From a bacterium HR37 (lineage in GTDB: Bacteria; Desulfobacterota_D; UBA1144; Nemesobacterales; CSP1-2), in assembly GCA_002898375.1 (NCBI GenBank), contig BEIN01000019.1, forward strand, positions 1 through 49,659: a stretch of 49,659 nt of DNA. Reading direction: 5' to 3'. The notes under the pieces were generated by a model. It was not told the DNA's origin, made no database searches, and worked only from the letters and a program-made list of their open reading frames with translations. Below, in pieces: positions 6,274 through 49,310 of the stretch. Every line of letters begins with the position of its first letter. Positions within the stretch are counted from its first letter, which is position 1. Made by a program: the position numbers and the translations under genes.

Positions 6274-6295
6274 TCTCTTGCTTATTGGGAGTTTA

Positions 6296-7245
6296 ATGGG
6301 TGTAAAAGGGGTTTTGTTTTTTCTGTTAAGAGTGGCTGTTGCTTTAGGGATTCTTTTTTATCTTTTAAAAAAGATACCCATATCAAGGGTTATTGATTCG
6401 CTTCTCTCCGTTAACTTGGGTTTTGTATTTTCTGCTTTCTTGGCATCCATTCTCCTACAGCTTGTTCTGGCATACAGGTTAAGGCTTTTAACCGAAAAAC
6501 AGAAAATAAACATCTCCACTTTTGATCTTCTTTGCATCAATTTATCTGCAGTTTTCTATGGGCTTTTCCTCCCGGGGGGTAATTTAACAGGTGGGGTGGT
6601 CCGTTTCTATAAGCTCTCTGGTTTAAGTGATAGTAGGGGAGGGGTTCTTGTATCTATGGTATTTGATAGGGTGGTTGCTACAGTTACCCTGTGTGTAATT
6701 GGAGGGTTTTTCTGGTTGCTTGATTTTTCAAATCTAATGACGGTATCCATAATTGCGCTTATGGAGGACTTTTTCTTGTATGTGCTGGGTTTTTCTCTAG
6801 AGGAGTCATTTCCTTTAATAAGAGGTGGGAGAAGGTATCTCTAGTTCCCAAGAGATTTGGAAGTTTGTACTTATCGTTAAGCCGGTATCGACATGCTTCC
6901 CCTGGCTTTATCTTGCTAGTTGTCTTTATCTCCTTGTTTGCCCAGTTGTTTGGTGTTCTTATCTACTATGTACTGGCGGCATCTCTTAAGCTGGAACTCT
7001 CTTTTGTTACGATTGGATGGATTAGGTCTGCTGTGGTCCTTGCAACCATGTTTCCTGTATCCTTTTCCGGTTTGGGAATCAGGGAGGGGGTTTTGCTTGT
7101 ACTGCTAAAGCCCTTTGAGGTTTCAGAGAAGGAGGCACTGGCTTTATCGTTTCTTGTGTTCTGTACCACGCTGCTTTTAATAGGAATAATTGGAGGGATA
7201 CTGGAGGGTAAGAGGTTTTTGGTTAACCGAACCGATTACATCTGA
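6296..7245 (+). pseudogene. Flippase-like membrane protein (UPF0104/LPG-synthase TM family), frameshifted
   Basis: Two open frames together make one full-length family member of about 316 residues. The first frame (ATG 6296, preceded by GGGAG) encodes 'LFFLLRVAVALGILFYLLKKI' style helices and 'LSAVFYGLFLPGGNLTGGVVRFYKL'. It loses family character after about 6750 and stops at 6844. The next frame already reads like family sequence from about 6760 and carries the C-terminal motif 'PVSFSGLGIREG', which aligns with 'PISVGGLGIQEG' of the intact relative at 18268-19242. The shift corresponds to one lost base (or two gained) around 6745-6775. It could be a true mutation, a sequencing error or, less likely, recoding. 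An upstream TTG at 6278 is possible, but 6296 has the better ribosome-binding site. Confidence 0.75.
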
Positions 7246-38692: not shown

Positions 38693-40339
38693 ATGAGTTC
38701 TATTCTAATAGATAAAGATATACTTTTAGATTGTTTAGGTATTACCCAAGAAAACACATCTAATTCCCTTAAATTAATTGAGTTTTGTAAAAGGGAAGAT
38801 ATAAAGGCCTGGGTTTCAGAGCACAGTGTGTCAGAGGTCTGCAGGGTTATTGCTGGTAGCAAAAATATAAAGGAATTTTTTAATAAACTTAAAGATTTAC
38901 TTGAGATATTTGGTGTTTTATCCCTTAATAAAGATAATATCTTTTCTGCTATATCGCGTTTGGATACGGACTACTGGGTATCCATTCAGTATGAGGTTGC
39001 AAAGCAAGCGGGTATTAAATACATCGTTACAAACAGTCCTCACTCCTATGGTGGTGATTCCCAAAACCCTGAGGTTCTAACCCCAGAGGCCTTTATGGAA
39101 AGGGTTAAGGAAGAGGAGGCTGGTAGTATCCCACCACTTGATTTAAAGCCTGAGCTTCATCAGTTTTGGGATGAGGCTCAGAAGGGGCTTGGGAGGGTTA
39201 TCTTTTCTACCAGTTTTATCCTTGGTGATACCGTAAAGAGGTTTGAGGAGGAGTTTGCAAAGTACTGTGGGGTGGAGCACTGTATAGGGGTAGCTTCGGG
39301 AAGTGATGCCCTTTTAATATCCCTTATGGCAATAGATGTAGGTCCTGAGGATGCTGTAATAACCACTCCGTATACCTTTTTTGCCACAGCCGGTTCAATT
39401 GCAAGGCTTTTTGCCCTACCTGTTTTTGTTGATATAGATTCCGCTACCTATAACATTGATCCTAACGGGATTGAGAAGCTTATAAAAGAGAGCTGCTACT
39501 GGGATGGTGAGGCTCTCTGGATAGAGTCCCCGGATGTTAGAACCTCCCCTTTAAACCCCCGATACTTTCCGAAACGGCGTCGTGTAAAGGCTATAATCCC
39601 TGTTCACCTCTTTGGTCAGACCGCTGATATGGAAAGGATAATGGAGATAGCAAAAAGGTATAACCTCTACGTTATTGAGGATGCAGCCCAGGCTCATGGA
39701 GCCGAGTGCTGGATGGTGGGTTCCGGGCCGAAAAGGGTAGGTTCAATAGGGCATCTTGGATGTTTTTCCTTCTTTCCCACAAAAAACCTGGGAGGATGGG
39801 GTGATGGAGGAGCTGTTACAACAAATGATCCAGAGCTTGCTGAGAAAATAAGGATCTTAAGGGTTCATGGAAGCAGCCCCAAGTACTATCACAGGTTTGT
39901 AGGGATTAACAGCAGGCTGGATGCAATTCAGGCCTCGGTTTTACTGGCAAAGCTTCCCCATCTTGATACGTGGATAGATAAAAGACAAAGGGTTGCAAGA
40001 AGGTATATGGATTTACTCTCTTTAAATGGAAGGGTTCAGTTGCCTGAGGTAGCCGGTTATGTGGCAAGGCATGTCTGGAACCAGTTTGTTATAAGAATAA
40101 AAGGGGATGGAAAGAGGGATCAGGTTCAAAAGAGGTTAAAGGAGAGGGGAATCGGTACCGGTATCTATTACCCGCTACCCCTTCATCTGCAGGAGTGTTT
40201 CTCATACCTTGGTTACAAAGAGGGGGATTTTCCTAACTCAGAGAGGGCTTCAAGGGAAACGCTTGCTCTGCCTATGTTTCCTGAGCTGAGGGAATGGGAG
40301 CAGGAGAAGATTTCCAGAGAACTTGGGGAGGTGCTATGA
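38693..40339 (+). CDS. wbpE: PIN-like domain fused to DegT/WbpE-type aminotransferase
   Basis: 548 residues; the usual DegT family length is about 370-400. Residues 1-140 resemble a PIN nuclease domain: Asp7 in 'LIDKDILLD', Glu48 in 'VSEHSVSEV', Asp91/Asp93 before 'AKQAGIKYIVTN' (103-114), and 'VLTPEAFMERV' at 128-138, the usual closing motif. The last acidic block is altered ('TNSPHSY' instead of TRN/D-x-DF). Residues 150-548 form a PLP aminotransferase with 'GSGSDAL', 'EDAAQAHGA' (Asp330) and the PLP lysine Lys364 in 'FPTKNLGG'. It likely makes the 3-amino sugar between WbpB and WbpD. AAGGAG precedes the ATG. The PIN half is more A+T-rich than the rest. Confidence 0.85.
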   Translation: MSSILIDKDILLDCLGITQENTSNSLKLIEFCKREDIKAWVSEHSVSEVCRVIAGSKNIKEFFNKLKDLLEIFGVLSLNKDNIFSAISRLDTDYWVSIQYEVAKQAGIKYIVTNSPHSYGGDSQNPEVLTPEAFMERVKEEEAGSIPPLDLKPELHQFWDEAQKGLGRVIFSTSFILGDTVKRFEEEFAKYCGVEHCIGVASGSDALLISLMAIDVGPEDAVITTPYTFFATAGSIARLFALPVFVDIDSATYNIDPNGIEKLIKESCYWDGEALWIESPDVRTSPLNPRYFPKRRRVKAIIPVHLFGQTADMERIMEIAKRYNLYVIEDAAQAHGAECWMVGSGPKRVGSIGHLGCFSFFPTKNLGGWGDGGAVTTNDPELAEKIRILRVHGSSPKYYHRFVGINSRLDAIQASVLLAKLPHLDTWIDKRQRVARRYMDLLSLNGRVQLPEVAGYVARHVWNQFVIRIKGDGKRDQVQKRLKERGIGTGIYYPLPLHLQECFSYLGYKEGDFPNSERASRETLALPMFPELREWEQEKISRELGEVL

Positions 40340-40548: not shown

Positions 40549-41934
40549 ATGCATAGCAATATAGCTTTGATTTTTAAAAAGATGATTAATCCCAGGGTGG
40601 GTTTTTTGTTCCTTGGTATATTTGCCATAGTGTCACTTGCCTGGGTTATAGGAGGGATGATAGGTGTAGAAGACTATGGTGTCTTGCCACTTGCCCTGGT
40701 CGTTGGTCTATTGGGGGCCTTACTTATTTTTAGATTCCCCTTAATAGGTATGGCCACAATGTGCTTTCTTGTTCCTTTGGGTCCAACTACCCGTTTAATA
40801 GGTGGGGAAAGGGCTTTAACCCTGGCTGTGGGGGGTCTCTTATTTGGAATATTTGTTTCCAGAGTCTTAGTATTTCGTGAGAAAATAAAGCTTGATTACA
40901 TATCTAAGATTGTATTTGCCTATATTCTCTGGGGATTTCTCTCAGCTTTATGGGCTTATGATCCAGCAAGGTCTTTTAATTATGGAATAAGATTGCTTCA
41001 AATGCTTGCTATATATGTTTTGTTCTTAAACTACTGTCAGGACAAAAGACAACTGGATATTCTTACTTTAAGTTTTATAGGAGGAGCTTTAGTTTCATCA
41101 GCTGTAGCCTTCTTTGGAGGTATGACTTACAGAACCACCCAGAGGATTACGCTTTCTGAGTTTGATCCGAATAACTTTGCTCTTATCCTTTGTTTAGCCT
41201 TTATATTGATATCCTATTATTTTTACAGGACTAGGGTTGCGGTTTTTAAATTGATATTTTTTTTAGGGGCTATGATTATTGGATATACAATAATACAAGC
41301 ACAAAGCAGGGGTATGTGGGTGGCTATTTCGCTTTCTTTAATTTTATCTCTCATTTTGGTGTTTAAAAATTCTCAGGTAATAAAAAGGGCTTTTATTGCA
41401 ACCATAATCTTAGCCGGTGTTATTATCTCTGGTTACTACTTGGGAGTTATCAATGAAACTGTGGTTAGCAGATTTCAAACCCTTTTCTCTGATGATGTTT
41501 CTACCATGACTGCAAGGCGTAGCGATATATGGAAAGTGGGATTGGAAATGATTAAAAGCAATTTTCTTTTGGGAGTTGGGCTTAAAAATTTTGAAGTTGT
41601 GTATAATTATTATGCTCTTTCTACAAACATACTCACCGCTGGATTTTCTAGGGATCCTCATAATACATTTCTTGGAGTAATTGCTGAAACTGGAATAGTT
41701 GGTTTTTTTATATTTGCCTGTATGTTTATTTATATTTATAGGAATATACACCGTATAGCAAACCCTTTAGCGTACTTTGTATACACCTGGCTATTCTTAT
41801 GCTTTGTATTAGGGAATTTTTCAATAACTAATCACTTTAAATTTTATTTTTGGATTGTTCTCGTACTTATATCCTTAAAGCTGCGATTGGAAAATCAGGC
41901 TAGTTTAACTGTTTATAAGGACAAACTTTTATGA
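40549..41934 (+). CDS. O-antigen polymerase/ligase family protein (Wzy/WaaL-like)
   Basis: 461 residues, about eleven hydrophobic helices. The central 'IQAQSRGMWVAISLSLI' and the late 'DPHNTFLGVIAETGIVGFFIFACMFI' are the hallmark segments of the Wzy_C superfamily; a large periplasmic loop lies between them ('FQTLFSDDVSTMTARRSDIWKVG'). Such proteins polymerise lipid-linked repeat units or ligate the polymer to a lipid. With Wzx at 31402 and no chain-length regulator in view, polymerase is my preferred reading, but ligase cannot be excluded. First gene of the A+T-rich block, overlapping the next gene by 4 bases. Confidence 0.85.
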   Translation: MHSNIALIFKKMINPRVGFLFLGIFAIVSLAWVIGGMIGVEDYGVLPLALVVGLLGALLIFRFPLIGMATMCFLVPLGPTTRLIGGERALTLAVGGLLFGIFVSRVLVFREKIKLDYISKIVFAYILWGFLSALWAYDPARSFNYGIRLLQMLAIYVLFLNYCQDKRQLDILTLSFIGGALVSSAVAFFGGMTYRTTQRITLSEFDPNNFALILCLAFILISYYFYRTRVAVFKLIFFLGAMIIGYTIIQAQSRGMWVAISLSLILSLILVFKNSQVIKRAFIATIILAGVIISGYYLGVINETVVSRFQTLFSDDVSTMTARRSDIWKVGLEMIKSNFLLGVGLKNFEVVYNYYALSTNILTAGFSRDPHNTFLGVIAETGIVGFFIFACMFIYIYRNIHRIANPLAYFVYTWLFLCFVLGNFSITNHFKFYFWIVLVLISLKLRLENQASLTVYKDKLL

Positions 41935-43163
41935 AGGTATTGCTAGTTTCTTCAATGTATCCAAATCCTGTAAATGAGAATGCAGGTATTTTTGTTGAGG
42001 AACAAGTTAAGGCATTGGTTAAGAAGGGTTGTGACATAAAGGTAGTAAAACCTGTTCCCTATTCCCCTTCTATTTTAAGAAGAGTAAATCAAAGATGGAA
42101 GGAATACATAAATGTTCCGTTATCTGAAATCAGAAATGAAATCGAAATATTTTATCCAAGGTATTTGCAGATTCCACACTCTTTGCTTGGTGATTTGATA
42201 GGTTATTCATTGCTGTATTTTCAGGGTGAGTTGCTTTATTTGGGTATAAAGCAGAAAATAAATGAAATTATTGTAAATTTTAGACCTCATATTGTGCATG
42301 TTCATGGAGCTTTTCCAACGGGATATGTGGTTTCATTGCTGAAAAGATCGCTTTTACGGAATGTTAAAACGGTACTTACACTTCATGGTGGGGATATTAA
42401 CGTTATTCCTTTTAGGAGCAGATTAATTAAGAGAAAAGTAAAAGAGAGTTTAAATAATCAGGATGCTATTATAGCTGTTAGTCAAAATTTAAAGGATATA
42501 GCTATTTCTATTTCAGGGTGTGACCGAATTTATGTGATTCCTAACGGAGTGGATATACATAAATTTACTTTATCTACAGAGGACTTAGAATTAGTTAAGA
42601 AAAAAAGGGAAATCTTTAAAGAAAACAAAGTTATTCTGTTTGTAGGTAATATTAGCAGGGAAAAAGGAATAATAGAGCTATTGGAAGCTTTTACACGACT
42701 TATATCGTATAGGGATAATCTTATATTGATACTTGTTGGTAGGGTTAAGATAGTGGACATTTTAAATCGTTATTTAAGTTCTTTAAGTGGGAAGGTTAAA
42801 GTTATTGGTCCTGTTAAACACGAAGAAATAAAGATATGGATGAATTTATGTGATATTTTTGTTCTCCCAAGTTACACCGAAGGTTTACCTGTATCAATGT
42901 TAGAAGCTATGTCTTGTGGAAAGCCAGTAGTTGTTTCTAAAGTAGGTGGTGTTAGTGAAGTCGTTAAAGATAAAAAAAATGGTTTGTTGGTAAGACCTAA
43001 GGATATAGATGGGTTAGTTCAATGTATAGAGTTTTTGCTTGATAATCCGCATAAAGCAAAAAGCTTGGGCGAAGAAGGAAGAAAGACAATTCTTGAGAAT
43101 TATACTTGGAGCAAAAACGCTGAAAGAACTATTGAAGTTTATAAAAACATTGTTTCTAATTAA
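41931..43163 (+). CDS. GT4 family glycosyltransferase
   Basis: 410 residues. 'VLLVSSMYPNPVNENAGIFVEEQ' style N-terminus (start of many GT4 enzymes), 'VHVHGAFPTGYVVSLL' in the first half, 'VIPNGVDIHKF', 'VLFVGNISREKGIIELLEAF' and the donor motif 'SYTEGLPVSMLEAMSCGKP' (with glutamates spaced seven apart) in the second. It overlaps the polymerase by 4 bases. It is noticeably A+T-rich, like its neighbours. Sugar unknown. Confidence 0.9.
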   Translation: MKVLLVSSMYPNPVNENAGIFVEEQVKALVKKGCDIKVVKPVPYSPSILRRVNQRWKEYINVPLSEIRNEIEIFYPRYLQIPHSLLGDLIGYSLLYFQGELLYLGIKQKINEIIVNFRPHIVHVHGAFPTGYVVSLLKRSLLRNVKTVLTLHGGDINVIPFRSRLIKRKVKESLNNQDAIIAVSQNLKDIAISISGCDRIYVIPNGVDIHKFTLSTEDLELVKKKREIFKENKVILFVGNISREKGIIELLEAFTRLISYRDNLILILVGRVKIVDILNRYLSSLSGKVKVIGPVKHEEIKIWMNLCDIFVLPSYTEGLPVSMLEAMSCGKPVVVSKVGGVSEVVKDKKNGLLVRPKDIDGLVQCIEFLLDNPHKAKSLGEEGRKTILENYTWSKNAERTIEVYKNIVSN

Positions 43164-43171
43164 AAATCCTT

Positions 43172-44260
43172 ATGAAACATTGTTGTATTATTACCACTGT
43201 ACATTCTCCATTTGATGTTCGTATATTTCATAAACAGGCTAGGTCTTTAGTAAAAGCCGGGTATAGGGTTACCCTTATTGCTCCACATGATAGATGTGAG
43301 GTGGTTGAGGGTATTAAAATTATTTCTTTACCTAGATCACGCAACAGAATAGCCCGGATGTTAACTATATTTGTTGCATGCAAGTTAGCTCTTTACCAAA
43401 GGGCAGATACATATCACTTTCATGACCCGGAACTTATTTTTACAGGTTTAATCTTAAAACTCTTGGGTAAGAAGGTCATTTATGATGTCCATGAGGATTA
43501 TCCGCGCCAGGTTATTATGAAAGACTGGATACCTGCTCTTCTACGCAGACCTGTATCAATATTTATAAGTATCATTGAATATATTGTTGGGAGAATATTT
43601 GATGGAGTTGTGGTTGCTACTGACTTTATAGCAGAAAGGTTCCCTGCTAGTAAGACTGTTATTGTCAGGAATTTCCCATCTATTGAATATTTTAAGGAAC
43701 CTATGGATTGTAGTAGAAAATATTTAGAACGACCAATTGCTATTTATGCAGGTGGTTTAACAAGACTTAGAGGTATTAGGCAAATAGTAGAGGCATTCTC
43801 GCTACTTAAGGAAATTGAGTTATGGCTTGTTGGGAAGTTTGAGGATCATGCATTTCGGAATGAAATAGTACTTAAGGCTACTCCCAATGTAAAAATTCTT
43901 GGATTTAAACCTTTTGAGGAAGTTGTTCAGCTATATAAAAAGTCTAGTATTGGACTTGTTTGTCTACTTCCTACTGCTAATTATTTAGAGTCACTACCAA
44001 TTAAGCTCTTTGAATACATGGCTGCTGGACTTCCGGTTGTAGCTTCAAATTTTCCCTTATGGGCAGAATTTGTGGAGGGATGTGGGGTATTGGTTAATCC
44101 GGAGGATCCCCAGGATATTGCTAACGGCGTTAGAAAAATATTAAGTAATCCTGAGACTCTTCAAAAGATGGGAGAAACAGGACGAAGAAAGTTCTTGGAA
44201 ACTTATAATTGGGAACAAGAATTTCCAAAACTTTTAGAGCTTTATGCAAGGTTACTATAA
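43172..44260 (+). CDS. GT4 family glycosyltransferase
   Basis: 362 residues. 'SPFDVRIFHKQARSLVKAGY' at the start and 'YHFHDPELIFTGLILKLLGK' followed by 'YDVHEDYPRQ' are typical of a GT4 subfamily found in capsule loci. The C-terminal domain has 'AIYAGGLTRLRGIRQIVEA' and 'SLPIKLFEYMAAGLPVVAS', with Phe-Glu at the usual glutamate position. A-rich start region 'TAAAAATCCTT' precedes the ATG without a strong ribosome-binding site. The next gene begins 47 bases later. Sugar unknown. Confidence 0.88.
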   Translation: MKHCCIITTVHSPFDVRIFHKQARSLVKAGYRVTLIAPHDRCEVVEGIKIISLPRSRNRIARMLTIFVACKLALYQRADTYHFHDPELIFTGLILKLLGKKVIYDVHEDYPRQVIMKDWIPALLRRPVSIFISIIEYIVGRIFDGVVVATDFIAERFPASKTVIVRNFPSIEYFKEPMDCSRKYLERPIAIYAGGLTRLRGIRQIVEAFSLLKEIELWLVGKFEDHAFRNEIVLKATPNVKILGFKPFEEVVQLYKKSSIGLVCLLPTANYLESLPIKLFEYMAAGLPVVASNFPLWAEFVEGCGVLVNPEDPQDIANGVRKILSNPETLQKMGETGRRKFLETYNWEQEFPKLLELYARLL

Positions 44261-44307
44261 GACCTTTAGAGAAAGTTTTATATTCTTTTTATAGGGAATG
44301 CAAGATA

Positions 44308-45555
44308 ATGAAGAAAATTTGGTTTTTAAATCATTACGCTATTTATTCTAATCATCCTGGAATAACGCGCCATTTTGATTTTGGCAAAGAGTTAGTTAAA
44401 AGAAGATACGAAGTTACAATTTTTGCTTCTAACTTTAATCATGTTAATAAAACTTATATAAATGATTTCCAAGGTCTTTACAAAGAAGAATTTGTGGAAG
44501 GAGTGAGGTTTTTATGGATTAAAACTTATCCTTCATACAAGGATAATGATTGGAGAAGATTTCTGAACATGTTAAGTTATGCTTACGAGGTTATAAAAGT
44601 TGGGTTAAAGCTTGAAGAGAGACCCGACATAATATTGGGATCATCCTTACATTTATTCGCAGCTTTATCTGCTTATATCCTCTCTAAGAGAAAAAAGGCA
44701 AAATTTGTATTTGAGGTTAGAGATTTATGGCCTCAAAGTATGGTTGAATTGGGTTCCTATACAAGATACCATCCAATTGTATGGCTTATGTATAAACTAG
44801 AGAAGTTTCTTTATAAAAGAGCAAGTAAAATAATAGCTGTATTACCTAAGATAGAGAACTATATAGAAGATTTAGGTATAGAGAAAAGCAAAGTAATATA
44901 CATACCAAATGGGGTGGATCTTGAACCAAATGATTCAAAATCAGGTGTTTTATTACCTGATGGGTTAGAGGATTCTATAAATTCTCTTAAAAGAAGTGGA
45001 AAACTTATAGTAGCTTATGTTGGTTCGTTTGGAGTTGCAAATAATGTAGAAATTATTTTAGAAGCAGCTCAGATTATACATAAAAGTGAATTTCAAAATA
45101 TTCATTTCTTATTAGTTGGAGATGGGAATAGGAAAGAAAAACTTGTTGAGTATGTAGAGAAGAATAATTTGCAAAACGTTAGCTTTTTTAGCGCCATACC
45201 TAAAAAGGCTGTTTCATATCTGCTATCTAAGGTTGATATAACAGTTATTGCATGGAAAAATCGAAAAAATCTTTACAAATATGGAATCAGTGCAAACAAG
45301 ATTTTTGACTATATGGCAGCTGCAAAACCAGTTGTAATCTCTATAAATGCAGCCAACAATCCGGTGGAGGAAGCAAATTGTGGAATTTCAATTCCTCCAG
45401 AAAATGCAATCGAATTGGCAAAAGCTCTTGTTTATTTATCTAATATGCCAATGGAGGATAGAATAGCTATGGGCAATAGAGGAAGAGAGTATGTAAGAAA
45501 ACATCACTCCATACCAATTCTTGTTGATAAATTAGTGAATGCATTCAACAGTTAG
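44308..45555 (+). CDS. GT4 family glycosyltransferase (WbuB-like)
   Basis: 415 residues from ATG 44308, where AGGGA lies upstream and the protein opens 'MKKIWFLNHYAIYSNHPGITRH', the common start of WbuB/WcaI-type enzymes. An in-frame upstream start at 44209 would overlap the previous gene by 52 bases and is rejected. 'FEVRDLWPQSMVELG' near 137-151 is the subfamily hallmark. 'YIPNGVDLEPN', 'VAYVGSFGVANNVEIILEAA' and 'ANKIFDYMAAAKPVV' follow. WbuB transfers L-FucNAc in E. coli O26, but the donor here is not certain. The end is followed by a 75-base A+T-rich spacer. Confidence 0.88.
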   Translation: MKKIWFLNHYAIYSNHPGITRHFDFGKELVKRRYEVTIFASNFNHVNKTYINDFQGLYKEEFVEGVRFLWIKTYPSYKDNDWRRFLNMLSYAYEVIKVGLKLEERPDIILGSSLHLFAALSAYILSKRKKAKFVFEVRDLWPQSMVELGSYTRYHPIVWLMYKLEKFLYKRASKIIAVLPKIENYIEDLGIEKSKVIYIPNGVDLEPNDSKSGVLLPDGLEDSINSLKRSGKLIVAYVGSFGVANNVEIILEAAQIIHKSEFQNIHFLLVGDGNRKEKLVEYVEKNNLQNVSFFSAIPKKAVSYLLSKVDITVIAWKNRKNLYKYGISANKIFDYMAAAKPVVISINAANNPVEEANCGISIPPENAIELAKALVYLSNMPMEDRIAMGNRGREYVRKHHSIPILVDKLVNAFNS

Positions 45556-46404: not shown

Positions 46405-46554
46405 GTTATGATTTATTTTTCAACCTAAGTTTTATTGTTACGCTGACTTTAGCAATCTATATTAAGTTGTAACCCAACCAAAGTCTAATTGAATGTGTTT
46501 TTAAAACTGGTAAAAAATAAGGGAAAAAATAACAAGCTAATTAAGGAGAAAGAT

Positions 46555-47469
46555 TTGCCTATACTAGCTAAACATACAGAGCAAGACCGGTATATTGTCA
46601 AAGGATTAGATTTTACTGTTAAGGAATATGCCTTTAAAAGGATTTTTGATTTTTCTCTCGCTTTAATAGGACTTATTTTTTCAATTCCAATATGGATTCT
46701 TGTGGCAATAGCAATATGGTTAGAGGATGGAAGGCCAATACTGTATAAACAAAGGAGATTGGGAAAGCATGAAAGGCCTTTTTGGCTATTTAAGTTTCGT
46801 TCAATGGTGAAAAATGCAGAAGATAGTACAGGTCCCGTATGGGCTATGGAAAATGATCCCAGGGTAACGAAGGTGGGGAGGTTTATTAGAGCCACTGCTA
46901 TAGATGAGCTACCACAGCTTATAAATATCTTGAAAGGGGATATAAGTTTTGTAGGACCGAGGGCTGAGAGGCCAGAGCTAGCGGCAAAGTTTAAAAGAAA
47001 CATTCCTGCATTTGCCCTTCGAACCATTGTCAAACCTGGATTGACTGGCATAGCTCAGGTGTATGGAAGGTATGATACTCCACCACAACATAAACTAAGA
47101 TATGATTTGATCTATATTAAGAATCAGAGTTTTATTTTAGATTTAAAGCTTATCTTGCTTTCTTTCTGGATTACGTTTACCGGAAAATGGCAGAGTAGAG
47201 AGGATAAATTAGGTGTGCTGGTCAGGAAGAAAACTGCAAAAACAATGCAACCTTCTATATCATTGGTAAAACCGTTAGGTCAGCTACTTATTGAAGCCAA
47301 CGTTATAACCCAGGAGCAACTTAAAGAGGCTCTGGCTTATCAGAGGGGTTTAGGAATAAAAATTGGGGAAGCTTTGGTTAAAAAAGGTTTTTTATCAAAC
47401 CAGGTTCTTAACCAATTTCTACAATTACAATTGATTATGAGAGAACAAGAGTATAGAACTGGAGCATAA
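46555..47469 (+). CDS. Initiating sugar-phosphate transferase with C-terminal MshEN-like domain
   Basis: Bacterial sugar transferase (WbaP/WcaJ superfamily) that links the first sugar-1-phosphate to undecaprenyl phosphate. I start it at TTG 46555, which has a perfect AAGGAG six bases upstream, giving 304 residues; a longer frame from TTG 46489 is possible. One membrane helix (about 31-54) precedes the core: 'YKQRRLGKHERPFWLFKFRSM', 'IRATAIDELPQLINILKGD' and 'SFVGPRAERPE' contain the catalytic Asp-Glu and basic residues. After a short linker, residues 240-292 hold two 24-residue motifs separated by 5 residues (47272-47430) that match the cyclic-di-GMP-binding MshEN pattern. The predicted domain is absent from ordinary family members. 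Regulation by c-di-GMP is a prediction. Confidence 0.85.
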   Translation: MPILAKHTEQDRYIVKGLDFTVKEYAFKRIFDFSLALIGLIFSIPIWILVAIAIWLEDGRPILYKQRRLGKHERPFWLFKFRSMVKNAEDSTGPVWAMENDPRVTKVGRFIRATAIDELPQLINILKGDISFVGPRAERPELAAKFKRNIPAFALRTIVKPGLTGIAQVYGRYDTPPQHKLRYDLIYIKNQSFILDLKLILLSFWITFTGKWQSREDKLGVLVRKKTAKTMQPSISLVKPLGQLLIEANVITQEQLKEALAYQRGLGIKIGEALVKKGFLSNQVLNQFLQLQLIMREQEYRTGA

Positions 47470-47599
47470 TTGCAGGTGCAAGTAATGGGGTCTGTACAAA
47501 GATAAAGGAAAAGCTTTCAATTGATTTGGTGTGTTTTGTCTTAACCAGAAAAGAGTACTAATGGATAGAATTAATTGATTCCGTAAAGTAAGAAGAAAT

Positions 47600-47650
47600 A
47601 GTTAGTTTCTACTCATGACTTAACTTAATCCCAAAGTAGAATAACTAACT
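47600..47650 (+). repeat. Inverted repeat / hairpin in the 47470-47687 gap
   Basis: AGTTAGTTTCTACT at 47600-47613 pairs perfectly with 47635-47650 apart from a 2-base bulge (TA, 47642-47643), giving a 14-base-pair stem and a 21-base loop. It sits between the sugar transferase and the asparagine-synthetase-like gene. No T-run follows directly, so it is not a standard terminator. It could be a protein-binding site or an mRNA leader structure. The rest of the 218-base gap shows no clear motif; AAGGAG at about 47669 is too far from the ATG at 47688 to be ideal. Confidence 0.5.
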
Positions 47651-47687
47651 GCTTTATCTTTACTAGATAAGGAGTAAAATTAACTTT

Positions 47688-49310
47688 ATGTTGGTTACAA
47701 AAGATAGTATTTCTTCTTTTGGACATCTAGATCATTGCTGGGAGGATTCGGATTACTTATTCTGTTGGAAAGGCATGGTATTTATTGAGGGAATACCTTG
47801 TGGGGTTGATTCCATAAAAGAATTCTCAAAAGAAGTGAGAAGATTAGGTCTTCAAAAAGCCTGTTGTATTTTAAAGGGCTGTTATTTTATAGTTATTAAG
47901 GATAAAAGAAGAAATGCTTTCTATTCGTTTATTGATAATAGCGGTCTTTTTCAAGCATTTCATTCAGATAAAGCTATTTGTACATCCTTTTTAAAGTTAG
48001 TTAAATGGGAAGGTTTGTCGAAAGTAAATCTAAATAAAGAAGCAGTTGTAGAGTTTATCCATTTTGGAAATATTTTCTTTAATAAAACCTTTTTTGATTT
48101 AATAAAGAAGATCCCGAGACAAAGTATACTATCGTTTTCTGAAGAGGGGAAAATATGTTTCTCTGAAAAATTAATCCCAGATTTGGACGAAAAAAATGAT
48201 AAATTTTCGTTTCTTGATTTCTTTGAAGGATTTGTTTCTTCTATAAAAGATGAGAAGGTGAGTATAGACTTAACGGGTGGAATTGATTCAAGGTTGCTAG
48301 CTGTTCTTTTAGATTATTTTGGATTAGAGTTTGAAACAGCAGTAGTAGGGATAAGAGGAAATCAGGATATTGAGATTGCTAAAGAGGTTGCAAGTATATT
48401 AAAGCATGATATTCATATAACCTACCATTCAATAGACAACTTGGAAAAAGATCTATACGAGCTATTTGCTATGTGTGACGGCTTATGTAATATCTTAAAA
48501 TGCCACACTCAGTTACAAGATAACAGAGGTAGGTTGCATAGGGGTGTTAGCTTAAAGCTCTCTGGAGCGGGAGGCGAGCTTTATAAGGATTTCTGGTGGC
48601 TTCAAGATTTTCCTTTTTATAAAAAGAAAAGAGCCAATTTAGAGAGACTATTTGATCTTAGAATAGCCCCGATACCATTTAAACATTTTTATCTTTCTGA
48701 CGATTACATAGAGACTAGTATAAATATAAGACAAAAAGTATTAAAAGAGTTGTCAAAATATATAAGGGACACAAACACTAAAACCTATGACAATATATAC
48801 TTCAGTTACAAGATGTCAGAAGTAGGAGGAAGGTCTCTTACCAATAATTTTTATAGCGCGTTAAAAGGTTATGCACCACTATTAGAGCTAGATTTAGTTA
48901 GGTATGGCTTTAATCTCCCAAGAAGGGAAAGATTTTTCAACAATTTTCATAGGAAAATTATAACAAGTGTTAACCCAGATATCGCAAGGATTCAAACAAC
49001 AGGGAGTGGAATGTCAGTATCTTCAAAGAGTCTGGATATAATACAAGATATAGGTAAATACCTGGTTAACATAAGTATTCGTTTAACCAAGAAAGTTGCA
49101 CAAAAGTATTTGAGAAGAACTTATTTTCAGGAAAGTCCAATTCATCCAGATTTTTATAGTAAGCTTAGAAAGCTTTCAATTACTAAAGATTCTATTGATT
49201 TATTAAAGGATGAGGGGATAATAAATAAGAAGATTGATATAGATGACATTGATAACAACTATATTGGAAATTTTATTTCATTAGCTTTTCTTATGAAATA
49301 TATGCCTTAA
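47688..49310 (+). CDS. Asparagine-synthetase-like protein lacking the glutaminase cysteine
   Basis: 540 residues. The ATP-pyrophosphatase domain is recognised by 'DLTGGIDSRLLAVLL' at 194-208 (PP-motif TGGIDS at 196-201) and 'LSGAGGELY' at 291-299. The N-terminal half resembles a worn class II glutaminase domain, but residue 2 is Leu, not the catalytic Cys, so it cannot use glutamine in the normal way. Similar proteins in surface-glycan clusters are thought to form amide bonds, for example on uronic acids, which fits the uronate-forming enzymes here, but the acceptor is unknown. Strongly A+T-rich, and the last + strand gene of the window. Confidence 0.75.
   Translation: MLVTKDSISSFGHLDHCWEDSDYLFCWKGMVFIEGIPCGVDSIKEFSKEVRRLGLQKACCILKGCYFIVIKDKRRNAFYSFIDNSGLFQAFHSDKAICTSFLKLVKWEGLSKVNLNKEAVVEFIHFGNIFFNKTFFDLIKKIPRQSILSFSEEGKICFSEKLIPDLDEKNDKFSFLDFFEGFVSSIKDEKVSIDLTGGIDSRLLAVLLDYFGLEFETAVVGIRGNQDIEIAKEVASILKHDIHITYHSIDNLEKDLYELFAMCDGLCNILKCHTQLQDNRGRLHRGVSLKLSGAGGELYKDFWWLQDFPFYKKKRANLERLFDLRIAPIPFKHFYLSDDYIETSINIRQKVLKELSKYIRDTNTKTYDNIYFSYKMSEVGGRSLTNNFYSALKGYAPLLELDLVRYGFNLPRRERFFNNFHRKIITSVNPDIARIQTTGSGMSVSSKSLDIIQDIGKYLVNISIRLTKKVAQKYLRRTYFQESPIHPDFYSKLRKLSITKDSIDLLKDEGIINKKIDIDDIDNNYIGNFISLAFLMKYMP

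Follow-up and report, generated by a model that had tools for sequence, protein, structure and literature searches.

A Candidate c-di-GMP Receptor Module on an Initiating Sugar Transferase of the Bacterium HR37 and Its Relatives

Introduction

Can the enzyme that commits the first sugar of a lipid-linked polysaccharide itself be a receptor of cyclic di-GMP (c-di-GMP)? The post-translational control of undecaprenyl-phosphate-dependent (Wzx/Wzy) pathways is incompletely understood, and it is the synthase pathways whose control by c-di-GMP is well known (PMC12802240, PMC10942596). The question is raised by a gene of the bacterium HR37 located on contig BEIN01000019.1, where an earlier note had recognized, at the C-terminus of an initiating sugar transferase, two motifs of the kind found in the N-terminal domain of MshE. 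The window analyzed here, 49,659 nt long, is the whole of this contig of the assembly.

The Fusion Gene and Its Neighbors

The fusion protein, a small monotopic phosphoglycosyl transferase (PGT) followed by a C-terminal MshEN_N-type module, is encoded on the forward strand, as are all features of the window given with coordinates as part of this locus, by the open frame 46489..47469, which yields 326 amino acids when read from TTG 46489. The true start is probably TTG 46555, giving a protein of 304 amino acids, because this codon is preceded by AAGGAG (46543-46548) six bases upstream; the numbering from 46555 adopted in the earlier note is thus probably right. Residue numbers below refer to the longer frame. 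An assembly artefact or a readthrough joining two genes is unlikely, the fusion frames being intact in four other genomes.

The Bac_transf catalytic domain (46636..47178, residues 50-230; PF02397, E 1.3e-63) contains the re-entrant helix region 44-80, a PR motif at 157-158 and an invariant Asp139-Glu140 pair, unchanged in every aligned homologue, which corresponds to the catalytic pair of monotopic PGTs such as PglC. The predicted structure of the catalytic part matches PglC (5e-14) and WbaP (5e-11) in Foldseek. About 49 residues, predicted with low confidence, precede the domain; the protein contains no N-terminal four-helix (four-TM) bundle or DUF, and for this reason the enzyme is assigned to the small type of PGT. 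By family membership, it would transfer a sugar-1-phosphate to undecaprenyl phosphate. The catalytic domain is followed by a linker (47179..47271, residues 231-261), also modelled with low confidence and about 18 residues longer than the linkers of the four relatives described below.

The fusion gene closes a run of same-strand polysaccharide genes. Upstream of it lie genes for a Wzx-like flippase (31402), a Wzy_C/O-antigen polymerase or ligase-like protein (40549..41934; PF04932, 1.1e-21), three glycosyltransferases of the GT1/GT4 type (41931..45555) and a methyltransferase. The Wzy_C gene and the glycosyltransferase gene at 43172-44260 are 42% and 61% identical, respectively, to genes located near the fusion in one of the relatives (G001, L103). 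Two oddities were seen elsewhere on the contig. In the product of the gene at 38693-40339, an N-terminal PIN_3 domain (residues 4-113, E 1e-6) precedes a DegT/DnrJ/EryC1 aminotransferase (163-542), an odd pairing of a ribonuclease-like domain with a sugar aminotransferase. The successive frames 6278-6844 and 6865-7245 match positions 2-149 and 202-302 of LPG_synthase_TM (PF03706) and probably represent a single gene that a frameshift or a stop has interrupted.

The C-Terminal Module

The positions given in the earlier note for the tandem motif, 47272-47430, are exact and correspond to residues 262-314. Half-motif 1 (47272..47343, residues 262-285, PLGQLLIEANVITQEQLKEALAYQ) is separated by the five-residue spacer RGLGI (47344..47358, residues 286-290) from half-motif 2 (47359..47430, residues 291-314, KIGEALVKKGFLSNQVLNQFLQLQ), and the pattern proposed in that note matches the fusion protein at these two places only. 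When the protein was shuffled 200,000 times, the spaced pair never occurred and a single motif occurred in 3 shuffles. Both halves are covered by NF053729, an NCBIfam profile of 53 residues for the MshE-related c-di-GMP motif, which matches residues 262-314 across all of its 53 positions (E 1.9e-16; 59.6 bits at a cut-off of 38). The tail also aligns without gaps over about 60 residues to the c-di-GMP-bound MshE, 5htl_A (phmmer, E 4.1e-8). Together with the conservation of ligand-contact positions in the fusions of four other genomes, the curated profile and the 5htl match bear out the assignment of the tail, on a Bac_transf initiating transferase, to the MshE-type 53-residue family.

The Pfam profile T2SSE_N/MshEN (PF05157), which the earlier note had named as a check, gives no match to the fusion protein, and we therefore do not file the protein under PF05157. 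In an ATPase encoded by the same genome (contig C12), the motif at 1688-1846 is directly followed by the PF05157 match at 1847-2107. Judging from this arrangement, PF05157 appears to model the C-terminal subdomain that comes after the motif pair and is absent from the fusion protein, so that the missing match does not refute the assignment to MshEN. Nor does the lack of the following subdomain argue against binding, since isolated MshEN_N without it binds c-di-GMP at 0.35 uM (PMC5013675). A structure model of the tail, used for helix placement only because of its low confidence (pLDDT about 65), has four helices where they are expected; its best receptor match in Foldseek is 5htl, which at E 0.31 and a probability of 0.89 is not significant.

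When compared with MshE, whose residue roles were taken from PMC5013675, half-motif 1 has canonical Leu263, Gly264, Leu278, Leu282 and Gln285, and half-motif 2 contains Lys291, Ile292, Gly293, Gly300, Leu307, Leu311 and Gln314. Both leucine triads (L263-L307-L311 and L278-L282-I292, with Ile replacing one Leu), both Gly-3 residues (264 and 293), both end glutamines (285 and 314) and the second turn glycine (300) are thus kept. The two deviations that had been claimed for the first motif are real: Pro262 stands at the place of Arg9 of MshE and Asn271 at that of Gly18. There is a third one, Lys291 in place of Arg38. The relaxed pattern of PMC5013675, with [GAS] at position 10, is passed by half-motif 2 and failed by half-motif 1 owing to Asn271.

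The remark that replacement of the first Arg could change affinity has been overtaken by work on Thermus PilF, where Arg-free and Pro-containing domains bind: GSPII-B, with Lys and Leu at the Arg places, binds c-di-GMP at 6 nM, GSPII-C, in which Pro starts one motif, binds it at about 500 nM, and the consensus at the Arg places was extended to R/K/L (PMC11731258). Whether such a domain binds was reported to depend on its end glutamines, on Gly-3 and on the residue that opens the motif (PMC12002112), and all of these positions in the fusion tail are canonical or have binding precedents. Asn271 is the sole position of the tail with no documented precedent for binding; in MshE, Leu or Ile in place of this turn glycine lowered binding (PMC5013675). 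Taken together, Pro262 and Asn271 probably do not abolish c-di-GMP binding.

Related Fusions

Across 61 genomes (the genome of HR37 and 60 others), four further proteins match over both domains, in the related genomes G001, G019, G041 and G043. Each relative has the sugar-transferase domain and two NF053729 units, totalling 105-123 bits, whereas the protein from HR37 has one unit. The five catalytic domains form one clade (support 96/89) in which the HR37 protein branches first and is the most diverged, and the closest other Bac_transf homologues of the same order (e.g., L038 and L039) stop straight after the catalytic domain.

Over 11 motif units, columns 3, 12, 17, 21, 24, 28, 32, 35, 39, 50 and 53 are invariant, and eight of these 11 columns coincide with one of the 12 positions that serve as contacts or turns in MshE (7e-5 in a simple hypergeometric test, which ignores relatedness). 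None of the units has Arg at position 1 (Leu in eight, Ile, Phe or Pro in the others), and Lys takes the second Arg place in 10. The motifs start with Leu/Phe and Lys in the relatives and with Pro and Lys in the HR37 protein; Leu and Lys fit the extended R/K/L consensus. In three relatives, the second unit has Asn, Glu or Lys at position 10. The single unit of HR37 is identical to either unit of the relatives at 18 to 27 of 53 residues, which does not clearly make it an orthologue of one or the other. A frameshifted remnant of a lost second unit was sought in the three frames of 47467-47690, downstream of the fusion gene, and none was found there.

Exchange of the Catalytic Domain

In three relatives (G019, G041 and G043), the fusion gene is convergent with a Wzy_C-type gene, and in G019 and G043 a Wzm/Wzt-like transporter is encoded on its other side. 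The exopolysaccharide locus of G019 also contains genes for a Wzc-like chain-length protein and a polysaccharide export (SLBB) protein. A further genome, G008, has a locus syntenic to that of G019, most shared genes being 55-79% identical, and in it the place of the fusion gene is occupied, in the same orientation, by a gene for a 491-residue protein (L102:8706-10181, forward strand, G008:C6). In this protein, a polytopic undecaprenyl-phosphate transferase of the WecA type, two MshEN_N units form the C-terminus. The catalytic part, of WecA type by PF00953 (2.4e-35) and TIGR02380 (212 bits), is unrelated to Bac_transf, while the tail shares 55.6% identity with the tandem tail of G019 over 135 residues.

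The initiating enzyme has thus been replaced by one of another superfamily without loss of the putative receptor tail, and because the WecA-type enzyme of G008 retains the tandem tail, both classes of initiating transferase carry the same candidate receptor. This exchange, which is absent from the earlier note, is in our view the strongest argument that the tail has been selected for a function at the initiating step.

Next to the fusion gene of G019 lie a gene for a histidine kinase and another one of unknown kind (L104:11641-13874).

Possible Mechanism and Alternatives

We consider it likely that a c-di-GMP receptor controls the fusion PGT, activation making up the larger part of this expectation; the binding of c-di-GMP, the allostery and its direction are inferred. 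The PGT would put the first sugar-1-phosphate onto undecaprenyl phosphate, and one MshEN_N four-helix receptor, joined to it by a flexible linker, would lie on the cytoplasmic side. The GGDEF enzymes of the cell would supply c-di-GMP, which would bind across both 24-residue motifs; its predicted contacts are both leucine triads, the backbone at Gly-3 and the glutamine that ends each motif. The bound module may become ordered alongside the catalytic domain or the dimer interface of that domain and so change the activity, most likely upward by analogy with NfrB, which is reported to be activated by c-di-GMP (PMC8669469). The commitment of undecaprenyl phosphate to polysaccharide would then follow the second messenger, and the tandem units of the relatives may allow tighter or graded control.

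It appears unlikely to us that c-di-GMP binds but inhibits the transferase, or relocates it, e.g., to the cell poles or a chain-length regulator, instead of activating it. The sequence gives no direction of control, and the loci of the relatives hold possible partners in the form of a Wzc-like chain-length/kinase protein and, in G019, also a histidine kinase; the characterized MshEN glycosyltransferase, however, is NfrB, for which activation was reported (PMC8669469).

Points that speak against the favored reading are Asn271 at a turn glycine, the low confidence of the tail models with their non-significant Foldseek match to MshE, and the lack of a GGDEF gene in the window. With its single unit and as the most diverged member of the group, the HR37 protein could also have a tail that is a weakened copy. 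In the extreme case, the tail would be a receptor by descent that has decayed and now serves only as a helical module for dimerization or partner docking. Half-motif 1 does fail the relaxed pattern through Asn271, Pro262 also deviates, one unit stands against two in the relatives, and degenerate GSPII domains that do not bind are known, such as PilF GSPII-A and that of XpsE. Yet the fusion tail has canonical residues, or residues with binding precedents, at all positions where changes cost PilF GSPII-A its binding (Gln285, Gln314, Lys291, Gly264 and Gly293); position 10 also departs from Gly in three of the relatives, in their second unit, and Thermus GSPII-C binds c-di-GMP although Pro opens one of its motifs (PMC11731258). 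We hold such decay to be distinctly unlikely. That a short tail rich in Leu and Gln, with no Pfam MshEN match, is an amphipathic helix resembling the motif by chance or through low complexity has a practically negligible probability and is rejected in view of the shuffles, the NF053729 score 21 bits above the cut-off and the conservation of the tail, which recurs in four further genomes and also behind a catalytic domain of unrelated origin.

Comparison with Known Systems

The candidate receptor of the fusion PGT is comparable to MshEN_N of Vibrio cholerae MshE (5HTL), with which it shares the two 24-residue motifs, the five-residue spacer, a predicted four-helix layout, both leucine triads, Gly-3 and the end Gln. 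Unlike in MshE, there is no MshEN_C subdomain or ATPase, the module sits on a lipid-linked sugar transferase, and Pro, Asn and Lys replace Arg9, Gly18 and Arg38. The Thermus PilF domains GSPII-B and GSPII-C, where the motif-start Arg is replaced by Lys/Leu or Pro, are comparable in this respect (PMC11731258) but belong to an ATPase context. NfrB of E. coli, a GT2 glycosyltransferase with a C-terminal MshEN, is a processive synthase, whereas the fusion is, by its family, an initiating PGT of an undecaprenyl-phosphate pathway. PglC (a small PGT) and WbaP (a large one) share the catalytic fold and the Asp-Glu pair with the fusion, but neither has a c-di-GMP module; WbaP instead has a UMP-sensing N-terminal DUF (PMC10942596). 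In the EpsZ/EpsW system of Myxococcus xanthus, a signalling module controls an initiating PGT post-translationally, but the receiver is a protein of its own that works in trans (PMC12802240), while in the fusion the candidate nucleotide receptor is built in.

On balance, we lean towards the view that the committed step of lipid-linked polysaccharide synthesis is under built-in c-di-GMP control by a tail that moved between two unrelated superfamilies and stayed at the same position in the operon. In this group of bacteria, control of polysaccharide synthesis is probably exerted right at the initiating reaction. If true, the fusion would be a first case in which c-di-GMP directly controls a PGT. 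In the literature searched, no paper joining MshEN to a sugar transferase was found, and none on a c-di-GMP receptor on an initiating PGT, although an earlier mention in a table is possible, e.g., among the fusions listed in the supplement of PMC5013675 or in the PGT network paper (PNAS 2021). A receptor within the initiating enzyme would join the fields of synthase control and Wzx/Wzy control and would suggest how the shared and scarce lipid carrier is rationed. The module is small and cytoplasmic, with 53 residues per unit, and has already been used by nature on two unrelated catalytic domains.

Distribution and c-di-GMP Signalling Genes

The MshE-type motif itself is common, being present in 280 of 387 genomes. 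The Bac_transf fusion was seen only in a single order of a small phylum, where 5 of the 44 genomes have it; there was none in the rest of the 387-genome set at 1e-14 (profile A2), none among 195 genomes of a second phylum at 1e-16 and none in 13 named genomes, negatives whose sensitivity is limited and depends on profile A2 and its thresholds. A plasmid collection gave no match to the fusion tail. Motif-bearing frames of 150-420 amino acids in other genomes comprised ATPase pieces, MshEN proteins lacking any recognized enzyme part and a single BY-kinase-like protein (identified by eye), and no sugar transferase was seen among them.

The window contains no GGDEF gene. Four GGDEF proteins, all with an intact GG[DE]EF, are encoded by the genome of HR37, and one of them also carries an EAL-type domain with EVLLR. 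Five other motif sites are present in the genome: an ATPase, an MshEN-GT2 protein, two stand-alone MshEN proteins and a weak match below the cut-off. Because of these GGDEF proteins and motif sites, c-di-GMP signalling in HR37 is plausible.

Several of the other motif-bearing proteins deserve mention in their own right. The stand-alone MshEN proteins of HR37 (L098:1278-1733 and L099:1252-1710) and of G001 (L101 and L108) have about 150-200 residues and no recognized effector domain. L010 of HR37 (G000:C13, reverse strand), read by eye, has an N-terminal MshEN followed by a GT2-type glycosyltransferase, which makes it the second sugar enzyme with such a motif in this genome. The search for the tandem tail elsewhere returned just one unrelated protein with a triple motif. 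It is encoded at L115:1252-2349 (G195), appears by eye to hold three MshE-like motif pairs ahead of a C-terminal region of unknown kind, and lies between spore-coat-U-like and fimbrial-chaperone-like genes, where control of a chaperone-usher system by c-di-GMP is possible.
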